Positions 30,179-41,661 of a stretch of 64,000 bases of DNA are shown one piece after another. The position numbers and the translations under genes were made by a program. Location: NCBI GenBank assembly GCA_025455885.1, contig JALOLR010000013.1:1-64000 (forward strand), in the 5' to 3' direction. Positions within the stretch are counted from its first letter, which is position 1; every line of letters starts with the position of its first letter. Source of the stretch: Acidimicrobiales bacterium (GTDB lineage: Bacteria > Actinomycetota > Acidimicrobiia > Acidimicrobiales > Acidimicrobilacustridaceae). The notes under the pieces are model-generated. The model saw only the letters and a program-made list of their open reading frames with translations, was not told where the DNA came from and ran no database searches.

Positions 30179-31432
30179 ATGACCCGTTTCGTCCTTCCCG
30201 AGGCGCAGCTCCCGACCGCCTGGTTCAACATCCTCCCCAGGCTGGCCGAGCCGCTCGACCCACCTCTCCACCCGGGTACGCGCGAGCCGGTGACCCCTGA
30301 CGACCTCGCGCCGTTGTTCCCGATGGCCCTCATCGAGCAGGAGATGTCGCCCGCCCCGTGGATCGACGTCCCCGGCGAGGTGCTCGACATCCTGAAGCTC
30401 TGGCGCCCCACCCCGCTCGTGCGGGCCACCCGCCTCGAAGCGGCGCTCGGCACGCCGGCGCGCATCTACTTCAAGGACGAATCGGTCTCGCCGGCCGGTT
30501 CGCACAAGCCCAACACCGCCGTGCCCCAGGCCTTCTACAACAAGCAGGAGGGCGTCACCCGTCTCACCACGGAGACCGGCGCCGGTCAGTGGGGAACGGC
30601 CCTGTCGTTCGCCACCGCGCAGTTCGACATGGAGTGCATGGTGTACATGGTGCGGGCGTCGTACGACCAGAAGCCGTACCGCAAGATCATGATGGAGATC
30701 TGGGGTGGGGAGGTCGTGCCCTCGCCGATCGACGACCCCACCAGCCCGGGGTCGCTCGGCGCGGCCATCTCCGACGCGGTGCGCGACTGCGTGGGCCGGG
30801 ACGACTCCCACTACGCCCTCGGCTCGGTGCTCAACCACGTCTTGCTGCATCAGACCGTCATCGGCCTCGAGGCCAAGGAGCAGCTCCAGCTGGCCGGTGA
30901 GGACCTCCCCGACGTCGTGATCGCCCCGTGCGGCGGCGGCTCCAACCTCGGAGGTCTGGCGTTCCCGTTCGTCCCCGACGAGGGCGTGCGCATCGTGGCC
31001 GTCGAGCCCGAGTCGTGCCCGACCCTCACCGCCGGGCGCTTCGAGTACGACTTCGGTGATGTCGCCGGCATGACCCCGCTCATGCCGATGTACACCCTCG
31101 GCCACGACTTCATGCCCCCGTCCATCCACGCCGGGGGACTGCGCTACCACGGCGACTCCCCGATCGTCTCGAAGCTCGTGAAGGACGGCCGCATCGAGGC
31201 CGTGGCGCTGCCCCAGAGCAAGGTCTTCGACGCCGCCATCCAGTTCGCCAACACCGAGGGCAAGGTGGCCGCCCCCGAGGCGGCCCACGGCATCCGGATC
31301 GCCATCGACGAGGCGCTCGCCGCCAAGGAGACGGGCGAGGAGAAGGTGATCCTCTTCAACTACTGCGGTCACGGCCACCTCGACCTCGCCGCCTACGACG
31401 ACTACCTGCACGGTCGTCTCGTCGACGGCTGA
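30179..31432 (+). CDS. TrpB-like tryptophan synthase beta chain (TrpB2 type)
   Basis: The 417-residue PLP enzyme has the TrpB2-type N-terminus ([24 protein letters not shown]). The Schiff-base Lys is in [11 protein letters not shown], followed by [15 protein letters not shown] and the phosphate loop [10 protein letters not shown]. TrpB2 proteins condense indole and serine, often without a TrpA partner. A conventional trpB lies beside trpA at 40504, so this locus has both forms. The ATG is preceded by GAGGAG about 6 nt upstream, one of the few clear ribosome-binding sites here. Confidence 0.92.
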
Positions 31433-31481: not shown

Positions 31482-32201
31482 ATGTTCGTCAAGATCTGCG
31501 GGACCACCAACCTCGCCGATGCGCTGATGTCCGTGGCCATGGGCGCCGACGCGATCGGGTTCGTCATGGCCCCGTCACCGCGGCGGATCGAGGCCGACGA
31601 GGTCGGCCGCATCCTCCGCGAGGTCCCCGACGACGTCCTCACGGTGGGCGTGTTCCGTGACGAGTCCGCCCAGTACATCGTCGACGTGGTCACCGAGACG
31701 GGCCTGCGGGGCGTCCAGCTGCACGGGCGGGAGTCCCACGGTGAGGCCAGCTGGATCCGGGCGCGGGTGCCGTTCGTGGTGCAGGCCTTCGGAGCGGGTG
31801 ATCCCCGTCTCGACCGCGTCGACGACTACGACGTCGACGCGGTGCTGCTCGACTCGTCCACGCCGGGGTCGGGGCGGACCTTCGACTGGTCCCTCGTGGG
31901 CGACCTCCCCCGCCGCCGGCGCGTCCTGCTCGCCGGGGGCCTCCGGCCCGACAACGTCGCGGCAGCCGTCGCCGCCGTCCGGCCCTGGGGGGTCGACGTG
32001 GCGTCCGGCGTCGAGTCCTCGCCCGGGCGCAAGGACGTGAGGTCGGTGCGGCGCTTCATCGCCGAGGCGAACCGGGCGGCCGACCTGCCGACGGCGACGG
32101 CGCCGTTCGACGACGCTGCCGACGAGACCGGCGATCCGCGGGACGAGGGCGAGCCCACGCACGACACCGACACCCTGCAGCTCTTCGACGAGCGTCGTTG
32201 A
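31482..32201 (+). CDS. trpF: Phosphoribosylanthranilate isomerase
   Basis: TrpF catalyses the Amadori rearrangement before TrpC. The 239-residue TIM barrel begins MFVKICGTTNLADAL with the catalytic Cys, then VGVFRDES, VQLHGRES, LLDSSTPGSGRTFDW with the catalytic Asp, LLAGGLRPDNV and DVASGVESSPGRKD. About 30 C-terminal acidic residues extend past the usual end. TACCGT lies about 9 nt before the ATG. It is the last trp gene before the glycosylation cluster. Confidence 0.94.
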   Translation: MFVKICGTTNLADALMSVAMGADAIGFVMAPSPRRIEADEVGRILREVPDDVLTVGVFRDESAQYIVDVVTETGLRGVQLHGRESHGEASWIRARVPFVVQAFGAGDPRLDRVDDYDVDAVLLDSSTPGSGRTFDWSLVGDLPRRRRVLLAGGLRPDNVAAAVAAVRPWGVDVASGVESSPGRKDVRSVRRFIAEANRAADLPTATAPFDDAADETGDPRDEGEPTHDTDTLQLFDERR

Positions 32202-32325: not shown

Positions 32326-34368
32326 TCAGGACTGGTCCCGGCACACCCCTTCCAGGGTGCGAAGCCAATCGGTCGGGCGGTAGTGCAGGAACAACGACGC
32401 GTAGTAGCGGCCGCGCAGAGGATGGGGCCGGCCGTGGGGGAGCTTCGCTCCCTCGTACAGCAGCATCTGGCCCGGTTCGAGGTACACGTCGTGGCATTGG
32501 CCCTCACGGTCCTCCACCACGAGCGGCCAAGGTTCGTCCACATCGGCGCCGACGTGGACGATGGAACTGATCACGTGGGTCTCGTAGCGGTCGTTGTGGC
32601 GGATCAGCGTCTGACCCTCTCGGTAGACCCTGAGTCCGTAGTGCGCGGTGGGCTCCAGCGGCGCCTGGTACCACTGCTCGTGCATCGACTTCAGCTCCTC
32701 GATCACCCAGGCGCCGAGCTCGCCGACGTCGATGAACGAAGGCATCCCGTCGGGCAGGAAGTGGTCGTCGGTGGTCTCGTCGGGGGCTGATGCCGCCCGG
32801 GCGGCGAGGACCTCGGCGAGCCGCTCTTGGACATCGGCAGGGGTGGTCACCACCCGGAACCCGTCGGCGGTCAGTGCCGGGAGGAGTTGGTGCTGGAGAT
32901 CGGTGCGTCGATCGGCGTCCCCGGTGAAGACCTCGGCGGGGGACTTGGTTCGCCTGGCCCAGAACACGATCGTGAACCGTCGGTCCTCGAAGCGGTCACC
33001 GGGGACGTGAACGGGGCGGACCTCGTGGGGCACATGGCTGTCGAAGACCACGAGGGTGTTGTCCTTCGGGGCCACCTCGGTGAAGGTGTCCGCAGCCTCG
33101 ATGACCCCGCCCACGTCGACGGTGTCGAAGAGTCGGAGCTCGCCACCCGAGAAGGCTTGTGGCTCACGGTTGAAGTAGTAGACCGCGCTGATGACGCGAG
33201 CCGCGACATCCGGACCGGCGGCGTCGACGTGCAGTCCGAAGTGGTCGCCGTCACCGTGCACGGTGAGCTGGCGCTCGATCGAGCCGAGTCTGAACCACTC
33301 GATGCCGAGCTCTCGACGGATGTGGGGGAGCAGGCCGACGAGTCGACCCTCGAACAGATCCCAGACCTTGTCGACATCGAAGTCCGTCTGTGATCGGCGC
33401 AGGTGGATGTGGTCGTCGAGCGGTTCGTCGGTGAGGACCTTGCTGGGGCTGAGATCGGCCTCCCGTGACAGCGCATGGTCGAGAAGACGACGGTGTTCCT
33501 CGGGAGTCAGGAGGTCGTCGAAGCGCAGGTGGCGGGCCCGGGTGACCTTCGCTTCGAACGCGGCCACCGCGGGCCGGGTCTCGGTGTCGTCGGGCGGCGC
33601 CTGGAGCTCGACCATCGGCTGTTGCTCGGCTCGGAGGAGCATGTCCGCAGCCAGGCCGTCCGCATCGGATGCCGCGCCGCGGAGCAGGACCAGGTGCGGT
33701 GCGAGCCGGCCGAGCAGGGACCTGGCCGCTGGAGCTCGTTGCTGGTTCGGCACCACGTGCTCGAGCAGAGCGAGCGCGGCACGGGCACCGGTGACCTCGA
33801 CCAGGTCCGGGTCGGGCTCGACCGCGACCACGAGCATCAGGGGTGCGGGTCGCGGTGAACCCGGCTCGTCGCGTTCCCTCGGGTCCGGGTCGGCGCAACC
33901 GCCCCCCACGAGGATCGGGAGGACGTGACCGGATCGGTCGAGGACCGCGAGACCGATCGAGAGCAGGGTTGCACCCGCTCTGACGAGCGCGTCGATCAGA
34001 GCCGGCGACTCGTCTGATCCGACGACAATGATGCCGCGACCGTGCCACGCGACGGCGCTGGCCCTCGCGACCACCAAGTCGGGACGCCGACGGTGCAGGC
34101 CGTCGAGGAGATCGGTGAGGAGCGCTCGGATGACGACGTCCCCGGCGACGTTGTGTCGCAACCCGCCATGCCCTCGCTCGAGCCCGTAGTGGTCGGGAGC
34201 ACGGCCGGTGACCTCGTAGCGCACTGCCGGTGCACCCGAGAGCACAGGCAGGGGCCCGTTCAGTCGGTCCGTGAGGGGTGCTCGCAGCTCCTCGGGCAGC
34301 ACGATCGAGGCCACGAAGCCATCGACCTCCACCAGCAGTTCGCGCCCTGGTGTCGCGTGTGTGTCCAT
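32326..34368 (-). CDS. Degenerate HprK-like domain fused to two 2-oxoglutarate/Fe(II) (prolyl hydroxylase-type) domains
   Basis: This 680-residue protein has three parts. Residues ~10-230 follow the HprK/PEPCK-like pattern (ARASAVAWHGRGIIVVG..., then ALVRAGATLLSIGLAVLD), but the P-loop lysine is gone (GSDESPALI), so it is probably a non-catalytic scaffold. Residues ~280-475 are a prolyl-4-hydroxylase-type dioxygenase with Fe ligands His380, Asp382 and His448 and a 2-oxoglutarate Arg in RRFTIVFW. Residues ~540-670 look like a second such domain with HND (His591, Asp593), LPHG (His645) and Arg654. The adjacent upstream gene encodes a Pro-repeat protein, its likely substrate. I chose ATG 34368; the frame extends to 34422 but overlaps that gene. 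Which domain hydroxylates proline is inference. Confidence 0.75.
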   Translation of the reverse strand: MDTHATPGRELLVEVDGFVASIVLPEELRAPLTDRLNGPLPVLSGAPAVRYEVTGRAPDHYGLERGHGGLRHNVAGDVVIRALLTDLLDGLHRRRPDLVVARASAVAWHGRGIIVVGSDESPALIDALVRAGATLLSIGLAVLDRSGHVLPILVGGGCADPDPRERDEPGSPRPAPLMLVVAVEPDPDLVEVTGARAALALLEHVVPNQQRAPAARSLLGRLAPHLVLLRGAASDADGLAADMLLRAEQQPMVELQAPPDDTETRPAVAAFEAKVTRARHLRFDDLLTPEEHRRLLDHALSREADLSPSKVLTDEPLDDHIHLRRSQTDFDVDKVWDLFEGRLVGLLPHIRRELGIEWFRLGSIERQLTVHGDGDHFGLHVDAAGPDVAARVISAVYYFNREPQAFSGGELRLFDTVDVGGVIEAADTFTEVAPKDNTLVVFDSHVPHEVRPVHVPGDRFEDRRFTIVFWARRTKSPAEVFTGDADRRTDLQHQLLPALTADGFRVVTTPADVQERLAEVLAARAASAPDETTDDHFLPDGMPSFIDVGELGAWVIEELKSMHEQWYQAPLEPTAHYGLRVYREGQTLIRHNDRYETHVISSIVHVGADVDEPWPLVVEDREGQCHDVYLEPGQMLLYEGAKLPHGRPHPLRGRYYASLFLHYRPTDWLRTLEGVCRDQS

Positions 34369-34396
34369 CGACGTGGCCGTCAGGCCATCGGAAGGT

Positions 34397-35017
34397 TCAG
34401 CCAGTGAACTTCGGCGAGGCATTCACCGCGGTCGCCGCGTCCGCTTCGGCGTCGGGGTCCACCGCCGCCGGTGCGGGGGCTGGTGCCGGTGCCGGTGCCG
34501 GTGCGGGGGCCGGTGCGGGGGCCGGTGCCGGTGCGGGGGCTGGGAACGGTGCGGGGAACGGTGCGGGGAACGGTGCCGGGAACGGTGCTGCCGCCGGCGG
34601 GGGAATGGGGGCGCCGGGTGCGGTCTGCGCGTCGGCACGGCTGGGCGAGGTGACGATCGACTCGACGATCGGGAGCGCCACCGCGGCAGCAGCCGCGGTC
34701 AGACCCAGCTTCTTGATGAGCTCGCGGCGGCCGATGGTCGGGACGCCGACCACGCCGGTGTCGATCAGCCCGCTGTCCACGAGCTCCTCGATGGCGAGCT
34801 CGACCACCTGGGCGTCCGGCGCGAGGCCGGTCGCCGCGGCGACCAGCGGGACCATGTCGGCGATCGTCGTCTTCCCGTCGCAGTGGTCCCAGACGACGGC
34901 CGCCGCCTCGTTGAGGGCATGCGCCTCACCGGTGACGTCGTTGAAGGCGAGGAGCTCGGTGGGCGTCCGCTCGACGAGGATGCCGTCGGTGCGGATCGGG
35001 CGGCTGTTCAGATCCAT
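34397..35017 (-). CDS. PqqD-domain, membrane-anchored Pro/Ala-repeat protein ending PKFTG (candidate hydroxylase substrate)
   Basis: This 206-residue protein starts with a PqqD-like winged-helix domain (residues ~5-88: FNDVTGEAHALNEAAAVVWDHCDG, ELAIEELVDSGLI). GRRELIKKLG and one hydrophobic helix (~104-122) follow, ending near SRADAQ, like a twin-arginine or internal signal segment. The rest is exported: PFPA x4 (145-160), PA x12 (161-184), an acidic DPDAEADAA stretch and the C-terminus NASPKFTG. The repeats recall arabinogalactan-protein modules, where alternating Ala-Pro is hydroxylated and glycosylated. Start at 35017 is fixed by TACGGT (35025-35030, minus strand) 7 nt upstream. The hydroxylase gene follows 28 bp downstream. 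Confidence 0.75.
   Translation of the reverse strand: MDLNSRPIRTDGILVERTPTELLAFNDVTGEAHALNEAAAVVWDHCDGKTTIADMVPLVAAATGLAPDAQVVELAIEELVDSGLIDTGVVGVPTIGRRELIKKLGLTAAAAAVALPIVESIVTSPSRADAQTAPGAPIPPPAAAPFPAPFPAPFPAPFPAPAPAPAPAPAPAPAPAPAPAPAPAAVDPDAEADAATAVNASPKFTG
34466..34585. repeat. In-frame tandem repeats encoding PFPA x4 and PA x12
   Basis: On the minus strand four 12-bp units encode Pro-Phe-Pro-Ala and are followed by twelve 6-bp units encoding Pro-Ala, with synonymous variation between CCG/CCC and GCA/GCC. All units are multiples of three, so changes in copy number would lengthen or shorten the Pro-rich stalk without a frameshift. Confidence 0.85.
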
Positions 35018-35024
35018 GGGCGGA

Positions 35025-35030
35025 ACCGTA
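35025..35030 (-). promoter_or_regulatory. -10 hexamer of the PqqD-protein gene
   Basis: Read on the minus strand this is TACGGT, ending 7 nt before the ATG at 35017. It lies in the 32-bp gap after the O-fucosyltransferase-like gene, so the substrate/hydroxylase pair likely has its own leaderless transcript. Confidence 0.5.
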
Positions 35031-35049
35031 CAACGGATGCCGGCGGATT

Positions 35050-36159
35050 TCAGGGGTCCCTGAGGCGAGCCTCCGGCCACTCGCGCATCCACGCCAGCGC
35101 CGCGGGGTCGACCGGGTACCCGAGGCGGTTCCAGGTGAAGGGTCCGTCGACGACCGGCAGGTAGGTGCAGCGCTCGAAGCGAGTTCCGCCTCCCAGGAAG
35201 TCAGCGGTGAACATGAACGGCTCGAGCGGGTCGGCGAGGTGGCGTCGGCGGTGGATGATGCCGGTGAACGTGCTCGCGAAGGTGCCGACGAAGCTGTCGG
35301 CTCGGGCCGCCACCTCCTGGGTGACCATCGCCAGCGCCGAGTCGTCGTGTCGCTCCAGTTCGGCGAAGCGCGCTCGCCACACCGGATCGTCGAGCAGGTG
35401 CTGGGAGAGGAACACCACGTCGCCGAAGTGGGAGCGGAGGGGCTTGAACACGTCGGAGTCCGGGTCGGCCTCGGTGCAGACCACCAGCCGCTCCTCCGAC
35501 GGCAGGACCGCCGCCAGGTTGTCGCGGATCATCCACGGCGTGACCCGTCGGTAGTCGGGAACCCCGACGAGGTGGTCGGTGCGTCGGATGTGGACGGCGT
35601 TGAACCGACCGAGCTCGGCGGCCACCGAGCTCGCCAGCTCCCGGTAGGGACGCTTCGGTCGGATCTGCTCCAGCAGCGAGAACACCTCGCGGCGCCGGTC
35701 CGGTCGCAGGTGGAAGAAGTACGAGTACGAGGCGAGGCCGCGTGCGGTGAGGTCGAGGATCGGTGCGTCGGCCCAGTCGGGATCGAAGGCGACGGTCGGG
35801 CGCCCGTGGGCGAAGGCGGCGGCACACTCCTCGTCCTGCGGACCTGTCGGACCATCGGCGTAGGCGACCTGGTAGAGGTCCGGCCAGTCGACGGTGAGCA
35901 CCGGATGCGCGCCCACGAGCTGGTCGTAGTCGTCGTCGCCGAGCACCGTGACCGGGAGGTCGAACAGATCCCGGAGGCTCGAGGCCGTCCCCGCATCCAC
36001 GCCGTCGAGCGCCGGTCGCGGCCCCCAGCCGATCGGCGAGTCGACCGGGAGCGACAACGCGCGATCGCTGAGGTGGGCGAGTCCGACCCCGATCTCGAGC
36101 GCCATCAGCTTGTTCGAGAGGTAGCCGACGTCCTCGGCCATTCGGAGCACCCGTACCAC
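35050..36159 (-). CDS. O-fucosyltransferase-like glycosyltransferase
   Basis: The 369-residue protein resembles the GDP-fucose protein O-fucosyltransferase/NodZ superfamily. It has an HIRRTDH motif (residues 190-196) that contacts the donor, a downstream VVCTEADPDSDVFKPLRSHFG strand, and a C-terminal ADSFVGTFASTFTGIIHRRR block (about 287-306). Such enzymes use GDP-L-fucose or other GDP-sugars, which fits the GDP-mannose 3,5-epimerase in the cluster. It has no signal peptide and should act in the cytoplasm. The GTG at 36159 is preceded by TAGGCT (36166-36171, minus strand) at 6 nt. The exact donor and acceptor are unknown. Confidence 0.7.
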   Translation of the reverse strand: MVRVLRMAEDVGYLSNKLMALEIGVGLAHLSDRALSLPVDSPIGWGPRPALDGVDAGTASSLRDLFDLPVTVLGDDDYDQLVGAHPVLTVDWPDLYQVAYADGPTGPQDEECAAAFAHGRPTVAFDPDWADAPILDLTARGLASYSYFFHLRPDRRREVFSLLEQIRPKRPYRELASSVAAELGRFNAVHIRRTDHLVGVPDYRRVTPWMIRDNLAAVLPSEERLVVCTEADPDSDVFKPLRSHFGDVVFLSQHLLDDPVWRARFAELERHDDSALAMVTQEVAARADSFVGTFASTFTGIIHRRRHLADPLEPFMFTADFLGGGTRFERCTYLPVVDGPFTWNRLGYPVDPAALAWMREWPEARLRDP

Positions 36160-36165
36160 CCGGCG

Positions 36166-36192
36166 AGCCTACGGCGCATCCGTCGGTACTCT
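36166..36192. promoter_or_regulatory. Divergent promoter pair of two glycosyltransferase genes
   Basis: Minus-strand TAGGCT (36166-36171) ends 6 nt before the O-fucosyltransferase-like GTG. Plus-strand TACTCT (36187-36192) ends 6 nt before the GlcNAc-transferase-like ATG at 36199. The start codons are 39 bp apart, so the two transcripts should be tightly linked in regulation. Confidence 0.5.
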
Positions 36193-36198
36193 CCGGCC

Positions 36199-37209
36199 AT
36201 GGCCGGCGCGAGCGAACCGCTGATCTTCGTGGCGCTGGCGTCCTACTGCGAGCCGGAGCTCGCGCTCACGATCGAGGACTGCCTGCGTCGGGCCGAGCGT
36301 CCCGACCGGCTGCGCTTCGGCGTCCTCCACCAGTTCGACGAGGACGGCCCGCCGGAGATCGGCGAGGACTGCTTGGCTCACCTCGCCGAGGATGATCGCT
36401 TCCGCATCGTCGTCCGTGACCACCGCGAGAGCAAGGGCGGATGCTGGGCCCGTCACTGGGTGCAGGGCCTCTACGAGGGCGAGGAGCTCACGCTCCAGGT
36501 CGATGCCCACACGCGGTTCGCCGACGGCTGGGACGCCCGGCTCGTCGAGATGATGGAGGAGCTCCCCTCGGAGCGGCCGCTGATCACCGGATTCCCTCCC
36601 CCCTACTTCCGTGCCGACGGCGTCGACCTCGTCGATCGGACCGCCGTCGAGCGGGTCCCGTCCGTGCGAGTGGTGCACTGGTCCGACGAGGGGTGGATCC
36701 ACCATCCGACCGAGCACATCGAACACACCAGGCCTGCGCCCCGGCGCACCAGGGTCCTGTCAGGGGCCTTCGTCTTCGCCCCCGGCTCCTGGATCACCGA
36801 CGTCCGCCAGGATCCGTCCCACATCTACACGGGTGAGGAGTTCGCGCTGACCCTGCGCTCGTTCACGCACGGCTACGACCTCTTCGAGCCGACCCAGGTG
36901 GTGGTCTGGCATCGCAGTCATCCCACCACGAACCGGAAGTGGATCGGCGACGCCCCCAGTGGCCTCGTCGGTGCCCGCCAAGGCCGGGCCTACGCCCGCC
37001 TCCGGCTGCTCCTCGCCGGTGACCCCGACCGGCGGCTCGGGTCCTACTCCCTGGGTTCGGAGCGGACGCTCGACGACTACCACCGGTTCTCGGGCCTCGA
37101 CTGTCGGACCCGAACGATCCACCCCGACGCCTTCGCAGGGATCCCGCCCGACTCGATGACGATCACCGCCCCGCCTCAGGAGACGCGCCGCGGGTCCGCG
37201 GACTTCTGA
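36199..37209 (+). CDS. GlcNAc-transferase-like protein (Skp1 hydroxyproline GlcNAc-transferase family, PF11397)
   Basis: The 336-residue protein follows the pattern of the family whose known member adds GlcNAc to hydroxyproline of Skp1 in Dictyostelium. FVALASYCEPELALTIEDCL is at the N-terminus. GGCWARHWVQGLYEGEELTLQ then leads into VDAHTRFADGWD (residues 101-112), the DxD-like QxDSHxRF motif of the family. ITGFPPPYF and IYTGEEFALTLRSFTHGYDLF follow. It has no signal peptide. TACTCT 6 nt upstream fixes the ATG. Its 3' end overlaps the convergent HPAT-like gene by 34 bp. Hydroxyproline as acceptor is inferred from the neighbouring hydroxylase. Confidence 0.75.
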   Translation: MAGASEPLIFVALASYCEPELALTIEDCLRRAERPDRLRFGVLHQFDEDGPPEIGEDCLAHLAEDDRFRIVVRDHRESKGGCWARHWVQGLYEGEELTLQVDAHTRFADGWDARLVEMMEELPSERPLITGFPPPYFRADGVDLVDRTAVERVPSVRVVHWSDEGWIHHPTEHIEHTRPAPRRTRVLSGAFVFAPGSWITDVRQDPSHIYTGEEFALTLRSFTHGYDLFEPTQVVVWHRSHPTTNRKWIGDAPSGLVGARQGRAYARLRLLLAGDPDRRLGSYSLGSERTLDDYHRFSGLDCRTRTIHPDAFAGIPPDSMTITAPPQETRRGSADF

Positions 37210-38027
37210 TCCACGGCGTCGGCCAGGATCGTGAGCAGATCACGGCAGTAGTCGAGCCGGGCCTCGGCCGGATCGACGCCGATCGGCTCCCATGGTCGGT
37301 AGTCGCGCTTGGACCACAGCGGCCGGCCATCGTGGGCCTCGACGGTCTGGCAGTAGTGGATGATCGGCGCCCCCGCCACCACGTCCTCGGGCCAGTTCAT
37401 CCACGCAGTCATCGCCTCGGTGACCAGGTCGAGACCGTCGGCGGCCAACGCGCCCACCAACGCGTACATGTCGCTCTCCCACCGCCCGGTCGCTTCCCGA
37501 ACGACGGCCGTCAGCTCGATCCAGCGGGGGAGGATCCGCTCGAGGTCGGCGGTGTGGACGAGGCCGGGCCAGGTCACTGCCGGGAGGTCGCCGGCATCCG
37601 ACCCGATGGCGTCGGCCACGACCCGGGCGGGGGCGCTGGTCGGGTGGAAATCGAGCCACCGCTGCAGCGTCGCGGTCCCTGCGACCGCCCGCCCTGGCAC
37701 TCGAGCTCGGAACACCATGTCGGGGTCGAGGATCAGTACCGTGCCGACCGGTCGCTCCTCCTCCAGCCACTCGAGCAGGGAGAACAGCCGGTTGTAGGGC
37801 GGGTAGCGATCGCCGGTGGCGGGGTGGACGTTCGGCGCGTCGGTCGCCACGACCCGCGCGTGGACGTGATCGGGCACCGGTCCTCCGTCAGGGGTGGCGA
37901 CCAGACGCACGAACTCACCGGGTTGTCCCACCTGCTTCCAGGTGTGGATCAGCAGCTGGCACTGCCAGTTGACCGAGGGGGCGGTGTCGGTGCACACGAC
38001 CGAGTAGAGCGATTCCCGAGCGGTCAT
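37176..38027 (-). CDS. Plant HPAT/SGT-like glycosyltransferase (Hyp O-arabinosyl / Ser galactosyl transferase superfamily)
   Basis: The 283-residue protein closely follows the plant peptidyl-serine galactosyltransferase and hydroxyproline O-arabinosyltransferase pattern. It begins YSVVCTD, then NWQCQLLIHTWKQVGQPGEF (residues 20-39), HPATGDRYPPYNRLFSLLEWL (68-88) and the acidic VLILDPDMVFR (D101, D103), which should bind the metal and nucleotide sugar. A later WESDMYALVGALAADGL resembles the helix after the catalytic site. Plant relatives decorate extensins. Start ATG at 38027 overlaps the 61-aa ORF stop (ATGA), so it is coupled to the GT77-like gene. The sugar transferred cannot be deduced. 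Confidence 0.65.
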   Translation of the reverse strand: MTARESLYSVVCTDTAPSVNWQCQLLIHTWKQVGQPGEFVRLVATPDGGPVPDHVHARVVATDAPNVHPATGDRYPPYNRLFSLLEWLEEERPVGTVLILDPDMVFRARVPGRAVAGTATLQRWLDFHPTSAPARVVADAIGSDAGDLPAVTWPGLVHTADLERILPRWIELTAVVREATGRWESDMYALVGALAADGLDLVTEAMTAWMNWPEDVVAGAPIIHYCQTVEAHDGRPLWSKRDYRPWEPIGVDPAEARLDYCRDLLTILADAVDQKSADPRRVS

Positions 38028-38209
38028 GACGAGGAGAGGGCGATCCGGCGTCGGGCCGAGGGCTCCGGCCGACGACGACCGGTCGACGGTCGGCGGCTCC
38101 GGGACGATCGCAGGAAGAGGGCAGTGGGATGCTCGGCGAACCGACGGGTCGTCTCCGGATCGTACATCGGCACGTTCCTGGGCTGGAGTGGGCCGAGCCG
38201 ACCGATCAT
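38024..38209 (-). CDS. Small 61-aa ORF coupled to both neighbouring glycosyltransferase genes
   Basis: This ORF begins at an ATG that overlaps the TGA of the GT77-like gene (ATGA) and ends with a TGA that overlaps the ATG of the HPAT-like gene (ATGA). Such double 4-bp overlap is good evidence for a real coupled gene. The product begins MIGRLGPLQPRNVPMYDPET and has an Arg/Ser/Pro-rich C-terminal half, without membrane segments. I do not recognise it. It may be a small partner of the transferases or simply a translation bridge. Confidence 0.5.
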   Translation of the reverse strand: MIGRLGPLQPRNVPMYDPETTRRFAEHPTALFLRSSRSRRPSTGRRRPEPSARRRIALSSS

Positions 38210-39213
38210 GGCAGGCCGAATCGCTCGATCTTCGCGAGCTTCTCCGCGGGGTCGCGTGTCCACGAGTAGTGGATCACCACGCCGTCGGACCGCCACCGGT
38301 GCGCCGCCGGACTCAGGCCGTCCACCAGGTCGAAGAGGTGGCCGTTGAGGTACTCCGACTCGGGGAGCACCTGCACCCGCACCTGGTTGTAGGCATGGAA
38401 TCGTTCGAGGACCCGATTCAGCACGAGCTGCTCGCTGCCGAGGTGCACGATCGAGGCGGCGTTGCCCACCACCGTCGCCCACAGGCTGCGGGTGGCGTCA
38501 CCGGCCCGCACGTGCACGAATCCCGAGTTCACGTGCAGCGGTGCGAAGTGCGGATTGGGACCGTCGTGCATGACGAGCACGTCGGCATCCGTCTCGCGCC
38601 CGGCCAGATCGGCGATGGGGTCGCGGAGCCAGATCAGGTCGACATCCTGGAAGAGCACGACCTGTGCCACGTGCAGGGCGTCCCACGTGGCCACCGATTT
38701 CCAGGGCACCAGGCGCGAGAAGCGGGCGTCGTTCCAACCGACGACCGAGCCCAGCCGGTCGCAATCCTCGACGTTGGCGGCCACCGACGTCAGGCCGAGC
38801 TGGCGGCAGCGCCGATCGGTATCGAGATCGAGGGCGACGATGACGGTGCGGGACCGCACCTCGATCGATCTCTCGTCACAGGAGGACAACCAGCGCTCGA
38901 GGAACGGCAGGAACGGGGCGTTGCAGACCGACACGACCAACGTCCGAGGGTGATCGAGGGCCGCCACCGCCTGGTGCCACGCGTCCGCCCGTCGGGGGCC
39001 GTCGACGTTCAGCATGTCGACGAACATCTGCCGTGTCTCGTCGATGCCGAGGGGACGGGGGTCGGGCAGGAGACCGAGCTCCGCGTCCAGGATGCGGACC
39101 AGGTTCGGGTTGACGGCCGCCTCCTGCGCCACCGAGGGCGCGTGCATGGCCATTCCCGCCATCGTCACCCGGTCGTCGAGCCCCACGACCCACGGCCAAC
39201 GGACATCGTCCAC
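38206..39213 (-). CDS. GT77-like nucleotide-diphospho-sugar transferase (PF03407-like)
   Basis: The 335-residue protein resembles the GT77 family, which includes plant RRA/XEG113 extensin arabinosyltransferases and Skp1-modifying AgtA. Visible features are VIVALDLDTDRRCRQLGL (about 124-140), RLVPWKSVATWDALHVAQVVLFQDVDLIWL with the metal-binding DVD at 190-192, VNSGFVHVRAGD and SEQLVLNRVLERF. GTG at 39213 is preceded by TACCGT (39220-39225, minus strand) at 6 nt. The longer open frame to 39420 overlaps the divergent epimerase and is not used. Donor sugar unknown. Confidence 0.7.
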   Translation of the reverse strand: MDDVRWPWVVGLDDRVTMAGMAMHAPSVAQEAAVNPNLVRILDAELGLLPDPRPLGIDETRQMFVDMLNVDGPRRADAWHQAVAALDHPRTLVVSVCNAPFLPFLERWLSSCDERSIEVRSRTVIVALDLDTDRRCRQLGLTSVAANVEDCDRLGSVVGWNDARFSRLVPWKSVATWDALHVAQVVLFQDVDLIWLRDPIADLAGRETDADVLVMHDGPNPHFAPLHVNSGFVHVRAGDATRSLWATVVGNAASIVHLGSEQLVLNRVLERFHAYNQVRVQVLPESEYLNGHLFDLVDGLSPAAHRWRSDGVVIHYSWTRDPAEKLAKIERFGLP

Positions 39214-39219
39214 CCGTCG

Positions 39220-39225
39220 ACGGTA
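39220..39225 (-). promoter_or_regulatory. -10 hexamer of the GT77-like operon
   Basis: Minus-strand TACCGT ends 6 nt before the GTG at 39213. It lies in the 172-bp space between the GT77-like gene and the divergent epimerase, whose own TACGGT is at 39371-39376, about 9 nt before its GTG. Confidence 0.5.
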
Positions 39226-39385
39226 CCGGTCGGGAGTTCGGCCTCGTTGCCGTGGCCGCCCGGCGTCGCCATGACGCCCTCGCCCGAGCCGGTCGAACAG
39301 GCAGGCCTCCCCGGCTGTCGCCGTCACGGGACGAGAGCTGGGGCCGAGGACGAGCCGTACGACCATGGGATACGGTCGCCGGCTT

Positions 39386-40360
39386 GTGAAGGTTCTTGTC
39401 GCCGGTGCCGGCGGGTTCATCGGTGGTCACCTCGTGGCGTCGCTGCTGGCCGACGGCGTCGACGTGCGTGCAGTCGACCGCAAGCCCCGGGTCGAGTGGC
39501 TCCAGTGCTTCGCCGACGCCGAGAACGTGACGGTCGACCTCGACAGCGCGTCGACGTCGGCTGCGGCCGTGGCCGGGTGCGACCGGGTGTTCAACCTGGC
39601 GTGCGACATGGGAGGGATGGGCTTCATCGAGCTGAACAAGGCCCTCTGCATGCGGTCGGTGCTCACCAACACCCACCTCATCGCCGCCGCCGTGGACGCT
39701 GAGGTCGACCGCTACTTCTTTGCGTCGACCGCCTGTGTGTATCCCCAGAGCCGGCAGGACACCACCGCTCCGGTCGCTCTCTGCGAAGACGATGCGTACC
39801 CGGCCGATCCCGAGGACGGCTACGGGTGGGAGAAGCTGTTCAGCGAACGGATGTGCCGACACCACGCGGAGGACTTCGGCTTGGACGTGCGCATCGCCCG
39901 TTTCCACAGTGTCTACGGACCGCACTGCACCTGGCAGGGCGGGCGGGAGAAGGTCCCGGCCGCGATCTGCCGGAAGGTGGCCGAGGCCGCCGCCGACGGC
40001 GTGGACGAGATCGAGGTGTGGGGCGACGGCGAGCAGCGCCGCAGCTTCCTCTACGTCGACGACGCCATCGTCGGGGTGCGTCGCCTGATGGACTCCGAGG
40101 TGTCGGATCCGATCAACATCGGGTCCGCGGAGATGGTGAGCATCAACGACCTGATCGATACGGTGAGTGCGGTGGCCGGTGTCGCACTCGCCCGTCGCCA
40201 CGATCTCTCGGCCCCCCAGGGGGTCCGCGGTCGATCGAGTGACAACACGATGGTGCGCGAACGACTCGGCTGGGAGCCGACCACGACCCTGCGGGAGGGC
40301 ATCGAGCCCACGTACCGGTGGGTCGCCGCGCAGCTGGGGACCGGGACCGTCGAGCCGTAG
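39386..40360 (+). CDS. GDP-mannose 3,5-epimerase-like NAD-dependent epimerase
   Basis: The 324-residue short-chain dehydrogenase/epimerase has the NAD motif GAGGFIG (7-13) and the catalytic YGWEK (Tyr146, Lys150). It also has a set of signatures I associate with plant GDP-mannose 3,5-epimerase: [11 protein letters not shown] (72-81), [58 protein letters not shown] and GVRGRSSDN. Such an enzyme would supply GDP-L-galactose, and GDP-L-gulose as an intermediate. It probably feeds the GDP-sugar transferases of the cluster. GTG at 39386 was chosen because homology begins there. It is transcribed toward trpB. Confidence 0.82.
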
Positions 40361-40503: not shown

Positions 40504-41661
40504 ATGGCCCTGTCCGAACCCTCTGCGAGCGGGCGCTTCGGCGAGTTCGGCGGGCGATTCGTACCCGAGACGCTGGTGCCGGCCTGTGAGGAGCTGGAGC
40601 GGGCCTTCCGCTCGGCGTGGGGGGACCCGGCGTTCCGCGGCGAGCTCGACGGCCTCCTGGCCGACTACGCCGGCCGCCCGTCCCCGCTCACCGAGTGCAC
40701 CCGCCTCTCCGAGGAGCTCGGCGTGCGCGTCCTGCTGAAGCGCGAGGACCTCAACCACACCGGCAGCCACAAGATCAACAACGTGCTCGGCCAGGCCCTG
40801 CTCGCCCGGCGCATGGGCAAGACCCGCCTCGTCGCCGAGACCGGGGCAGGCCAGCACGGCGTCGCCACCGCCACCGCGGCAGCCCTGCTGGGCATGGAGT
40901 GCATGGTCTACATGGGTGAGGTCGACATGGGCCGCCAGCAGCTCAACGTCTTTCGCATGCGCCTCCTCGGCGCCGAGGTCGTCCCGGCCGTGTCGGGCAG
41001 CCGGACCCTCAAGGACGCCGTCAACGAGGCCATGCGGGACTGGGTGGCCACCGTGGCCACGAGCCACTACTGCCTCGGTTCGGTGATGGGCCCGCACCCC
41101 TACCCGTGGATGGTCCGGGAGTTCCACACCGTGATCGGCACCGAGGCCCGGGCGCAGTGCGCGGAGCTCCTCGACGGTGGTGTCCCCGACGTGGTGACCG
41201 CGTGCGTGGGCGGCGGCTCCAACGCCATCGGCATCTTCTCGGGCTTCGCCGACACCGACGCCGAGCTCGTGGGCGTCGAACCGGCCGGCGGCGCGGCCGT
41301 CGGGCGGGGCGTGCCCGGCGTGGTGCACGGGATGAAGAGCTACCTCATGCAGGACGAGTTCGGGCAGGTGCAGGAGGCGCACTCCATCTCCGCCGGGCTC
41401 GACTACCCCGGGGTCGGGCCGGAGCACTCGTTCCTCTCCTCGATCGGCCGGGCCCGCTACGAGCAGGTCACCGACGCCGAGGTGATCGACGCCTTCCAGC
41501 TGCTGAGCCGCACCGAGGGCATCATCCCGGCGCTCGAACCCGCGCACGCGCTGGCCTGGATCAGCCGCGACCGGGCCGCCCTCGCCGGGCGCACCGTGTT
41601 GTTGAACCTCTCGGGGCGAGGCGACAAGGACGTCGGCCAGATGATGGAGATCCTCGGTTGA
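40504..41661 (+). CDS. trpB: Tryptophan synthase beta chain (TrpB1 type)
   Basis: This conventional TrpB (385 residues) has [15 protein letters not shown], the PLP Lys in [57 protein letters not shown] and LSGRGDKD. It pairs with the adjacent trpA, unlike the TrpB2 form at 30179. The stop overlaps the trpA TTG. The 143-bp space upstream separates it from the epimerase and shows no clear TAnnnT at leaderless distance. Confidence 0.96.

Follow-up and report, generated by a model that had tools for sequence, protein, structure and literature searches.

The window analysed here, positions 1-64,000 of contig JALOLR010000013.1 from an Acidimicrobiales bacterium (GCA_025455885.1), holds a cluster of seven genes (32326-40360) that we consider as a candidate system for hydroxylating and glycosylating an exported proline-rich protein. 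All seven open reading frames (ORFs) are intact. Five of them are on the minus strand and, read 5' to 3' there, encode a GT77-like glycosyltransferase, an HPAT-family glycosyltransferase, an O-FucT-like glycosyltransferase, a PqqD-Tat-repeat protein, and a protein combining an HprK-like domain with tandem 2-oxoglutarate (2OG)-Fe(II) oxygenase domains; the last three genes are spaced by about 30 bp. The plus strand carries a PF11397 gene and an epimerase gene. This gene set had been proposed by a first-pass annotation of the letters and is confirmed for all seven genes: 2OG-FeII_Oxy_3, PF11397, PF23452, PF03407, PqqD and Epimerase all exceed their Pfam cut-offs in hidden Markov model searches, the exception being O-FucT.

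The oxygenase (32326..34368, minus strand; 680 residues) begins with an HprK-like domain with a degenerate P-loop (33556..34368), followed by two 2OG-Fe(II) oxygenase domains. The first of these (32944..33540) matches 2OG-FeII_Oxy_3 (PF13640, E 2.5e-19), and its iron- and 2OG-binding residues H109, D111, H177 and R193 are invariant in all five orthologues aligned. The second (32371..32868, boundaries approximate) retains the HxD...H signature, with H320, D322 and H374 (numbering of the aligned fragment) invariant in all five sequences; its 2OG-binding basic residue was not identified in this five-sequence alignment. The best sequence match of known structure is a prolyl 4-hydroxylase (6t8m, E 7.5e-10). 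In the AlphaFold model (mean predicted local distance difference test score, pLDDT, 67.5; core of the first domain mostly above 80), residues 6-204 adopt a PHD2/Tpa1/P4H-like fold, aligning by VIA-align with Z-scores of 15-17 to PHD2, the P. putida P4H and Tpa1. Foldseek ranks Tpa1/OGFOD1 at the top, the two-domain build being common to both. By closest fold, sequence and iron/2OG residues the enzyme is thus a candidate protein prolyl hydroxylase, which bears out the tandem prolyl-hydroxylase-type domains first proposed for it; likeness of fold to prolyl hydroxylases is in itself no proof of the substrate. Orthologues are 43-52% identical, pointing to old conservation. The HprK-like domain is encoded by a separate gene with an intact P-loop (GKS/GKST) in two other Acidimicrobiia, G084 and G229 (G and L numbers denote comparison genomes and loci, G000 being the window's own genome), and the versions from relatives match TIGR04352 (E 1e-18 to 7e-12). 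The window and a further genome, G202, have it as a fusion with the oxygenase, in which the P-loop is gone; in these two the fused domain is likely to have a scaffolding role.

The neighboring gene (34397..35017, minus strand) encodes the proposed substrate, a PqqD-Tat-Pro/Ala-repeat protein. It features a PqqD domain (residues 25-85; 34763..34945; PF05402, E 6.2e-7, above cut-off), a twin-arginine (Tat) signal (34634..34732) with the AxA-type site SRADAQ after it, and a 75-residue tail of (PAPF)n/(AP)n repeats that ends in VNASPKFTG (34400..34624), the last five residues constituting a PKFTG tag (34400..34414). The arginine pair is invariant across the nine members of the PqqD-Tat alignment. 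The Tat model TIGR01409 scores 18.5 bits against a cut-off of 16.7 for residues 1-131 and 16.1, just under it, for the full ORF; it is above cut-off in five of the ten PqqD-Tat members tested. Initially the protein had been read as a Pro-repeat membrane stalk, with the PqqD domain and Tat signal overlooked; the arginine pair, the AxA site and the TIGR01409 match led us to drop the plain stalk, and by its sequence the protein is a predicted Tat-exported precursor with a PqqD leader. The tail is 36% proline and 37% alanine, and its (PAPF)n/(AP)n part is devoid of serine and threonine. As this is also true of the G202 repeat, hydroxyproline (Hyp) would be the sole evident O-glycan site in these two proteins.

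Most PqqD-Tat relatives end in a comparable PxFTG or PxYTG. Genome-wide, a restricted DNA pattern for a P-[RK]-F-T-G end occurs 16 times, against two for the reversed control, and about 14 of these 16 matches lie at ORF ends, mostly of secreted-looking proteins with a Pro/Ala/Thr-rich linker. The motif resembles a tag for sorting or anchoring at the C-terminus, without the transmembrane helix usual for such tags, and is not known to us from the literature. Examples are at 604-1779 in the window, at L045:2900-3667 and in L100-L113. L100 (G000:C1, near 46924) is a long collagen-like (GPTGPTGPT)n protein ending in TPRFTG, and is possibly a further substrate of a prolyl hydroxylase.

The glycosyltransferases belong to distinct families. 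The PF11397 (Skp1 Gnt1/GT60-type) enzyme (36199..37209, plus strand; E 8.5e-47) scores 160.7 bits against a cut-off of 21, in agreement with the Skp1-type GlcNAc transferase-like assignment made at the outset; its QVDAH motif is kept in orthologues. The GT77-like enzyme (38206..39162, minus strand) matches PF03407 (Nucleotid_trans; E 1.3e-20, 74.7 bits, cut-off 22), is GT77-like by this Pfam model and has a homologue in G229. The HPAT-family enzyme (37176..38027, minus strand), previously labelled HPAT/SGT-like, matches PF23452 (GT95; E 9.7e-8) with 32.2 bits against a curated cut-off of 23.9, which is also surpassed in two other genomes (28.6 and 26.1 bits). The O-FucT-like enzyme (35050..36159, minus strand) is a remote match: PF10250 gives E 1.5e-5 and 25.2 bits, with a second score of 24.3, and its cut-off of 31.5 is not reached. 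The HxRRxD motif of GDP-fucose enzymes is kept in three orthologues as HIRRTD (window), HLRRSD and HLRRTD. The acceptors and activities of these transferases, such as the transfer of GlcNAc from UDP-GlcNAc to Hyp by the PF11397 enzyme, are predictions from sequence.

The last gene (39386..40360, plus strand; Epimerase, E 2.7e-42) upholds its reading as a GDP-mannose 3,5-epimerase: the Arabidopsis enzyme (2c59) is its best match, aligning end to end (E 2.6e-87), and the cysteine of ACVYP and the lysine of GGREK, presumably the catalytic residues of this enzyme, are retained. An orthologue lies near a PqqD gene in G084. The O-FucT-like enzyme may use GDP-L-fucose, or GDP-L-galactose from the epimerase, as donor; an absence of GDP-fucose was dropped as an argument for the latter, since a GDP-mannose 4,6-dehydratase is present in the genome.

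These genes are rare and recur together. The tandem oxygenase is found in two of 395 genomes of the class, the window's own and G084, leaving out two single-domain 2OG matches, and the same two are the only HPAT-positive ones among 198 genomes of the order; PF11397 occurs in two of 61 relatives. An HPAT profile search of genome contigs yielded two loci, one of them in G084. The other led to G229, an Acidimicrobiales metagenome-assembled genome (MAG; CALGZB01) that, though reached solely via HPAT, has two oxygenase/repeat-protein loci. In all, the tandem oxygenase and a PqqD-Tat-repeat protein are paired at five loci in four genomes: the window; G084 contigs C30 and C43, taken together; G229 C32; G229 C20; and G202 C200. 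The two genes adjoin each other wherever both share a contig, and presumably in G084. HPAT, PF11397 and O-FucT-like genes are present in three of the four genomes (the window's own, G084 and G229), such that both G084 and G229 possess a tandem oxygenase, a Pro/Thr-repeat protein and all three transferase types.

G084 is an Acidimicrobiaceae MAG of the same order and another family. Its contig C43 (CAJWHS010000043.1) has HprK-like, tandem 2OG, O-FucT-like and HPAT genes in succession, with PF11397, NTP_transf_5 and sulfotransferase genes on the opposite strand; C30 begins within a PqqD-Tat-(TTAATTVAP)n gene, adjoined by a large PF11397-containing transferase and the epimerase orthologue. As C43 begins just before the HprK-like gene and C30 inside the repeat, the two ends are probably adjacent, the assembly being broken in the repeat. 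In G229, C20 carries O-FucT-like, HprK, tandem 2OG and PqqD-Tat-(APTGAPTS)n genes, C32 carries HprK, tandem 2OG and PT-rich PqqD-Tat genes, and C77 the PF03407 gene; its HPAT gene sits between two PF11397 genes close to a PhyH-type oxygenase (L030:11848-13092). G202, of the same family as the window, has the fused HprK-2OG protein (78% identical in the oxygenase part) on a 4.8-kb contig, next to an (AP)n tail ending in KASPRYTG, the contig stopping inside the repeat. Thus hydroxylase, repeat protein and transferases, whose co-occurrence in other genomes had been put forward as the test of the idea, do recur together in genomes in which each is rare. With the whole set present in G229 too, coincidence is unlikely, although three genomes are a small sample.

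Taken together, families, catalytic residues, Tat signal and recurrence, all read from sequence, make it reasonably probable that the island is a protein-modification system. In the cytosol, the PqqD domain, a RiPP-recognition-element-type fold (RiPP, ribosomally synthesized and post-translationally modified peptide), would act in cis to bring in the modifying enzymes. The targets of the tandem oxygenase would be prolines in the Pro/Ala repeat. The HPAT-family enzyme, the PF11397 enzyme or both would attach a first sugar to the resulting Hyp, to be extended by the GT77-like and O-FucT-like enzymes, with the epimerase supplying GDP-L-galactose or GDP-L-gulose as donor. The decorated chain would then be exported by Tat, and signal peptidase would cut after the AxA site, removing the PqqD leader, so that what stays outside the cell would be a Pro-rich, glycosylated chain with PKFTG at its end. 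We infer the tail as substrate, proline as the hydroxylated residue, the identity and order of the sugars, and the cis recruitment by PqqD.

Several observations weigh against this scheme. The 2OG family is compatible with many substrates, and that of Tpa1/OGFOD1 is a ribosomal protein. The cluster genes lie on both strands and so form no single operon. At 26-32 bits the HPAT matches are of modest strength, and the structure model of this enzyme is poor (pLDDT 55), its fold search returning weak GT-A matches only. The visible G084 tail is Thr-rich with 11% proline, and the two G084 contigs are only presumed to adjoin. No PF11397, HPAT, O-FucT-like or PF03407 match was found in G202, which is 93% complete, although its oxygenase contig stops inside the repeat. 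In G018, of another family of the order, a PF11397 gene is divergent from a 2OG-like gene (G018:C60, L092), and no HPAT or O-FucT match was obtained in that genome. Finally, draft-genome contigs break inside the repeats.

It is conceivable, if unlikely, that the transferases and epimerase instead make a lipid- or polysaccharide-linked glycan, with the PqqD and HprK-like domains belonging to an exopolysaccharide-type peptide system and the proline tail a flexible spacer. Exopolysaccharide-type loci of the same genome do hold PqqD, HprK-like and NTP_transf_5 genes, and Pro/Ala-rich linkers ahead of a PRFTG end are common among its exported proteins; but enzymes of the PF11397, HPAT and O-FucT families are best known for acting on proteins, it is not obvious what an oxygenase of prolyl-hydroxylase type would do in lipid glycan assembly, and this oxygenase adjoins the repeat gene in the same-contig loci and presumably in G084. 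We regard as improbable a RiPP-like pathway that yields a modified peptide natural product from a small precursor encoded apart from PqqD. In its favor, the PqqD fold binds leader peptides, there are weak matches to TIGR04353 and TIGR04248, and some lasso peptides are tailored by HprK-like kinases; yet every member of the set has PqqD fused to the exported tail, neither radical-SAM nor cyclase genes were recognized in the window cluster and its relatives, and reading of the loci, which included no systematic small-ORF search, brought no separate precursor to notice. That the oxygenase acts on an unrelated target such as a ribosomal protein, amid what is simply a glycan island, is very improbable: Tpa1/OGFOD1, which have the same two-domain build, do lead the Foldseek matches, but the oxygenase is repeatedly adjacent to the repeat protein and fused to the HprK-like domain of the PqqD system, and other PqqD-Tat proteins adjoin single-domain 2OG genes.

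The latter belong to a wider assortment around the PqqD-Tat proteins. Where the neighbor is the tandem enzyme, the tails read (AP)n, (APTGAPTS)n and (PTPFPTPY..)n. A G202 member lacking a 2OG neighbor (L021) bears a proline-free (GSSS)n tail and is adjoined by sulfotransferase and HprK-like genes. Genus g2, in the window's own family, has PqqD-Tat proteins whose tails are different again; these adjoin either a single-domain 2OG enzyme (L024, L025, L027, L029) or a GT2-GT25 fusion (L022, L023, L026); GT25 includes collagen hydroxylysine galactosyltransferases. This suggests a constant PqqD leader, with the enzyme set matched to the tail. It is possible, and we propose it tentatively, that Acidimicrobiia have a modular surface-protein platform of PqqD, Tat signal and variable tail, in which the leader directs modification by swappable enzyme sets (tandem prolyl hydroxylase with Hyp transferases, single 2OG enzymes, GT2-GT25 fusions, or sulfotransferases) and is cleaved off upon export; the window would harbor the Hyp-glycan version.

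As for the setting, the cluster does lie between trpF (31482-32201) and trpB (40504-41661) in the window, as described earlier, although trp genes were unseen beside the related loci read. A second TrpB-type gene (30179-31432), recognized like these two by ORF reading without search, means that trpF and the cluster are flanked by two TrpB-type genes. GC content at third codon positions is 0.83-0.90 in the cluster, slightly lower than the 0.94-0.96 of the adjoining trp genes, which is compatible with acquisition and falls short of proof. An Rfam search of the window gave no match. The first-pass annotation's core reading, a dedicated hydroxylation-then-glycosylation pathway, is partly supported, by the genomic co-recurrence; the plain stalk gives way to a Tat precursor, the O-FucT match is remote, and the trp setting went unseen in the related loci.

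Known systems resemble the island in part. The innermost arabinoses of plant Hyp glycans are the work of HPAT and, in sequence with it, the GT77 enzymes RRA/XEG113 (PMC4132260). Extensin and arabinogalactan-protein Hyp O-glycosylation (P4H, HPAT GT95, RRA/XEG113 GT77, SGT) shares families, logical order and an exported Pro-repeat substrate with the bacterial island, which differs in adding PF11397 and O-FucT-like enzymes and in a cytosolic course presumably with a cis-acting PqqD leader and Tat, rather than the endoplasmic reticulum and Golgi. The protist Skp1 pathway likewise couples a cytosolic PHD2-type hydroxylase, PhyA, to a PF11397 transferase, Gnt1 (GT60) (PMC6939170, PMC8724618); the island has an exported repeat protein in place of Skp1, and HPAT/GT77-type enzymes in place of PgtA. 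The HPr-rel-A system (TIGR04352 HprK-related kinase A, TIGR04353 PqqD peptide chaperone) has in common PqqD and HprK-like components and, in G084, an NTP_transf_5 neighbor, whereas the island's PqqD is fused to a Tat signal and tail and its HprK P-loop is lost in the window. By the equivalog cut-offs the island is not a member (TIGR04352 at most 67 against 200 bits; TIGR04353 at most 29 against 35). To our knowledge, no Hyp-directed transferase set accompanies the Bacillus system, which resembles the island in having a bacterial prolyl 4-hydroxylase and a glycosylated repeat surface protein. The latter is BclA (PMC8968730).

Descriptions of Hyp-linked glycans come from plants, protists and green algae (PMC8724618), and according to a review most bacteria are unable to make hydroxyproline (PMC8968730). 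Searches of the open-access literature on bacterial HPAT/GT95, on Hyp glycosylation and on PqqD with Tat brought up no bacterial Hyp O-glycosylation cluster and no account of a system like this one. A bacterial cluster with a hydroxylase, HPAT-, Gnt1- and GT77-type enzymes and one clear candidate substrate would bear on the origins of these families. If the proposal is true, its enzymes may offer soluble, cytosolic means of producing Hyp-glycoproteins in bacteria, and the PqqD-Tat-tail design would represent a new coupling of protein modification to export.

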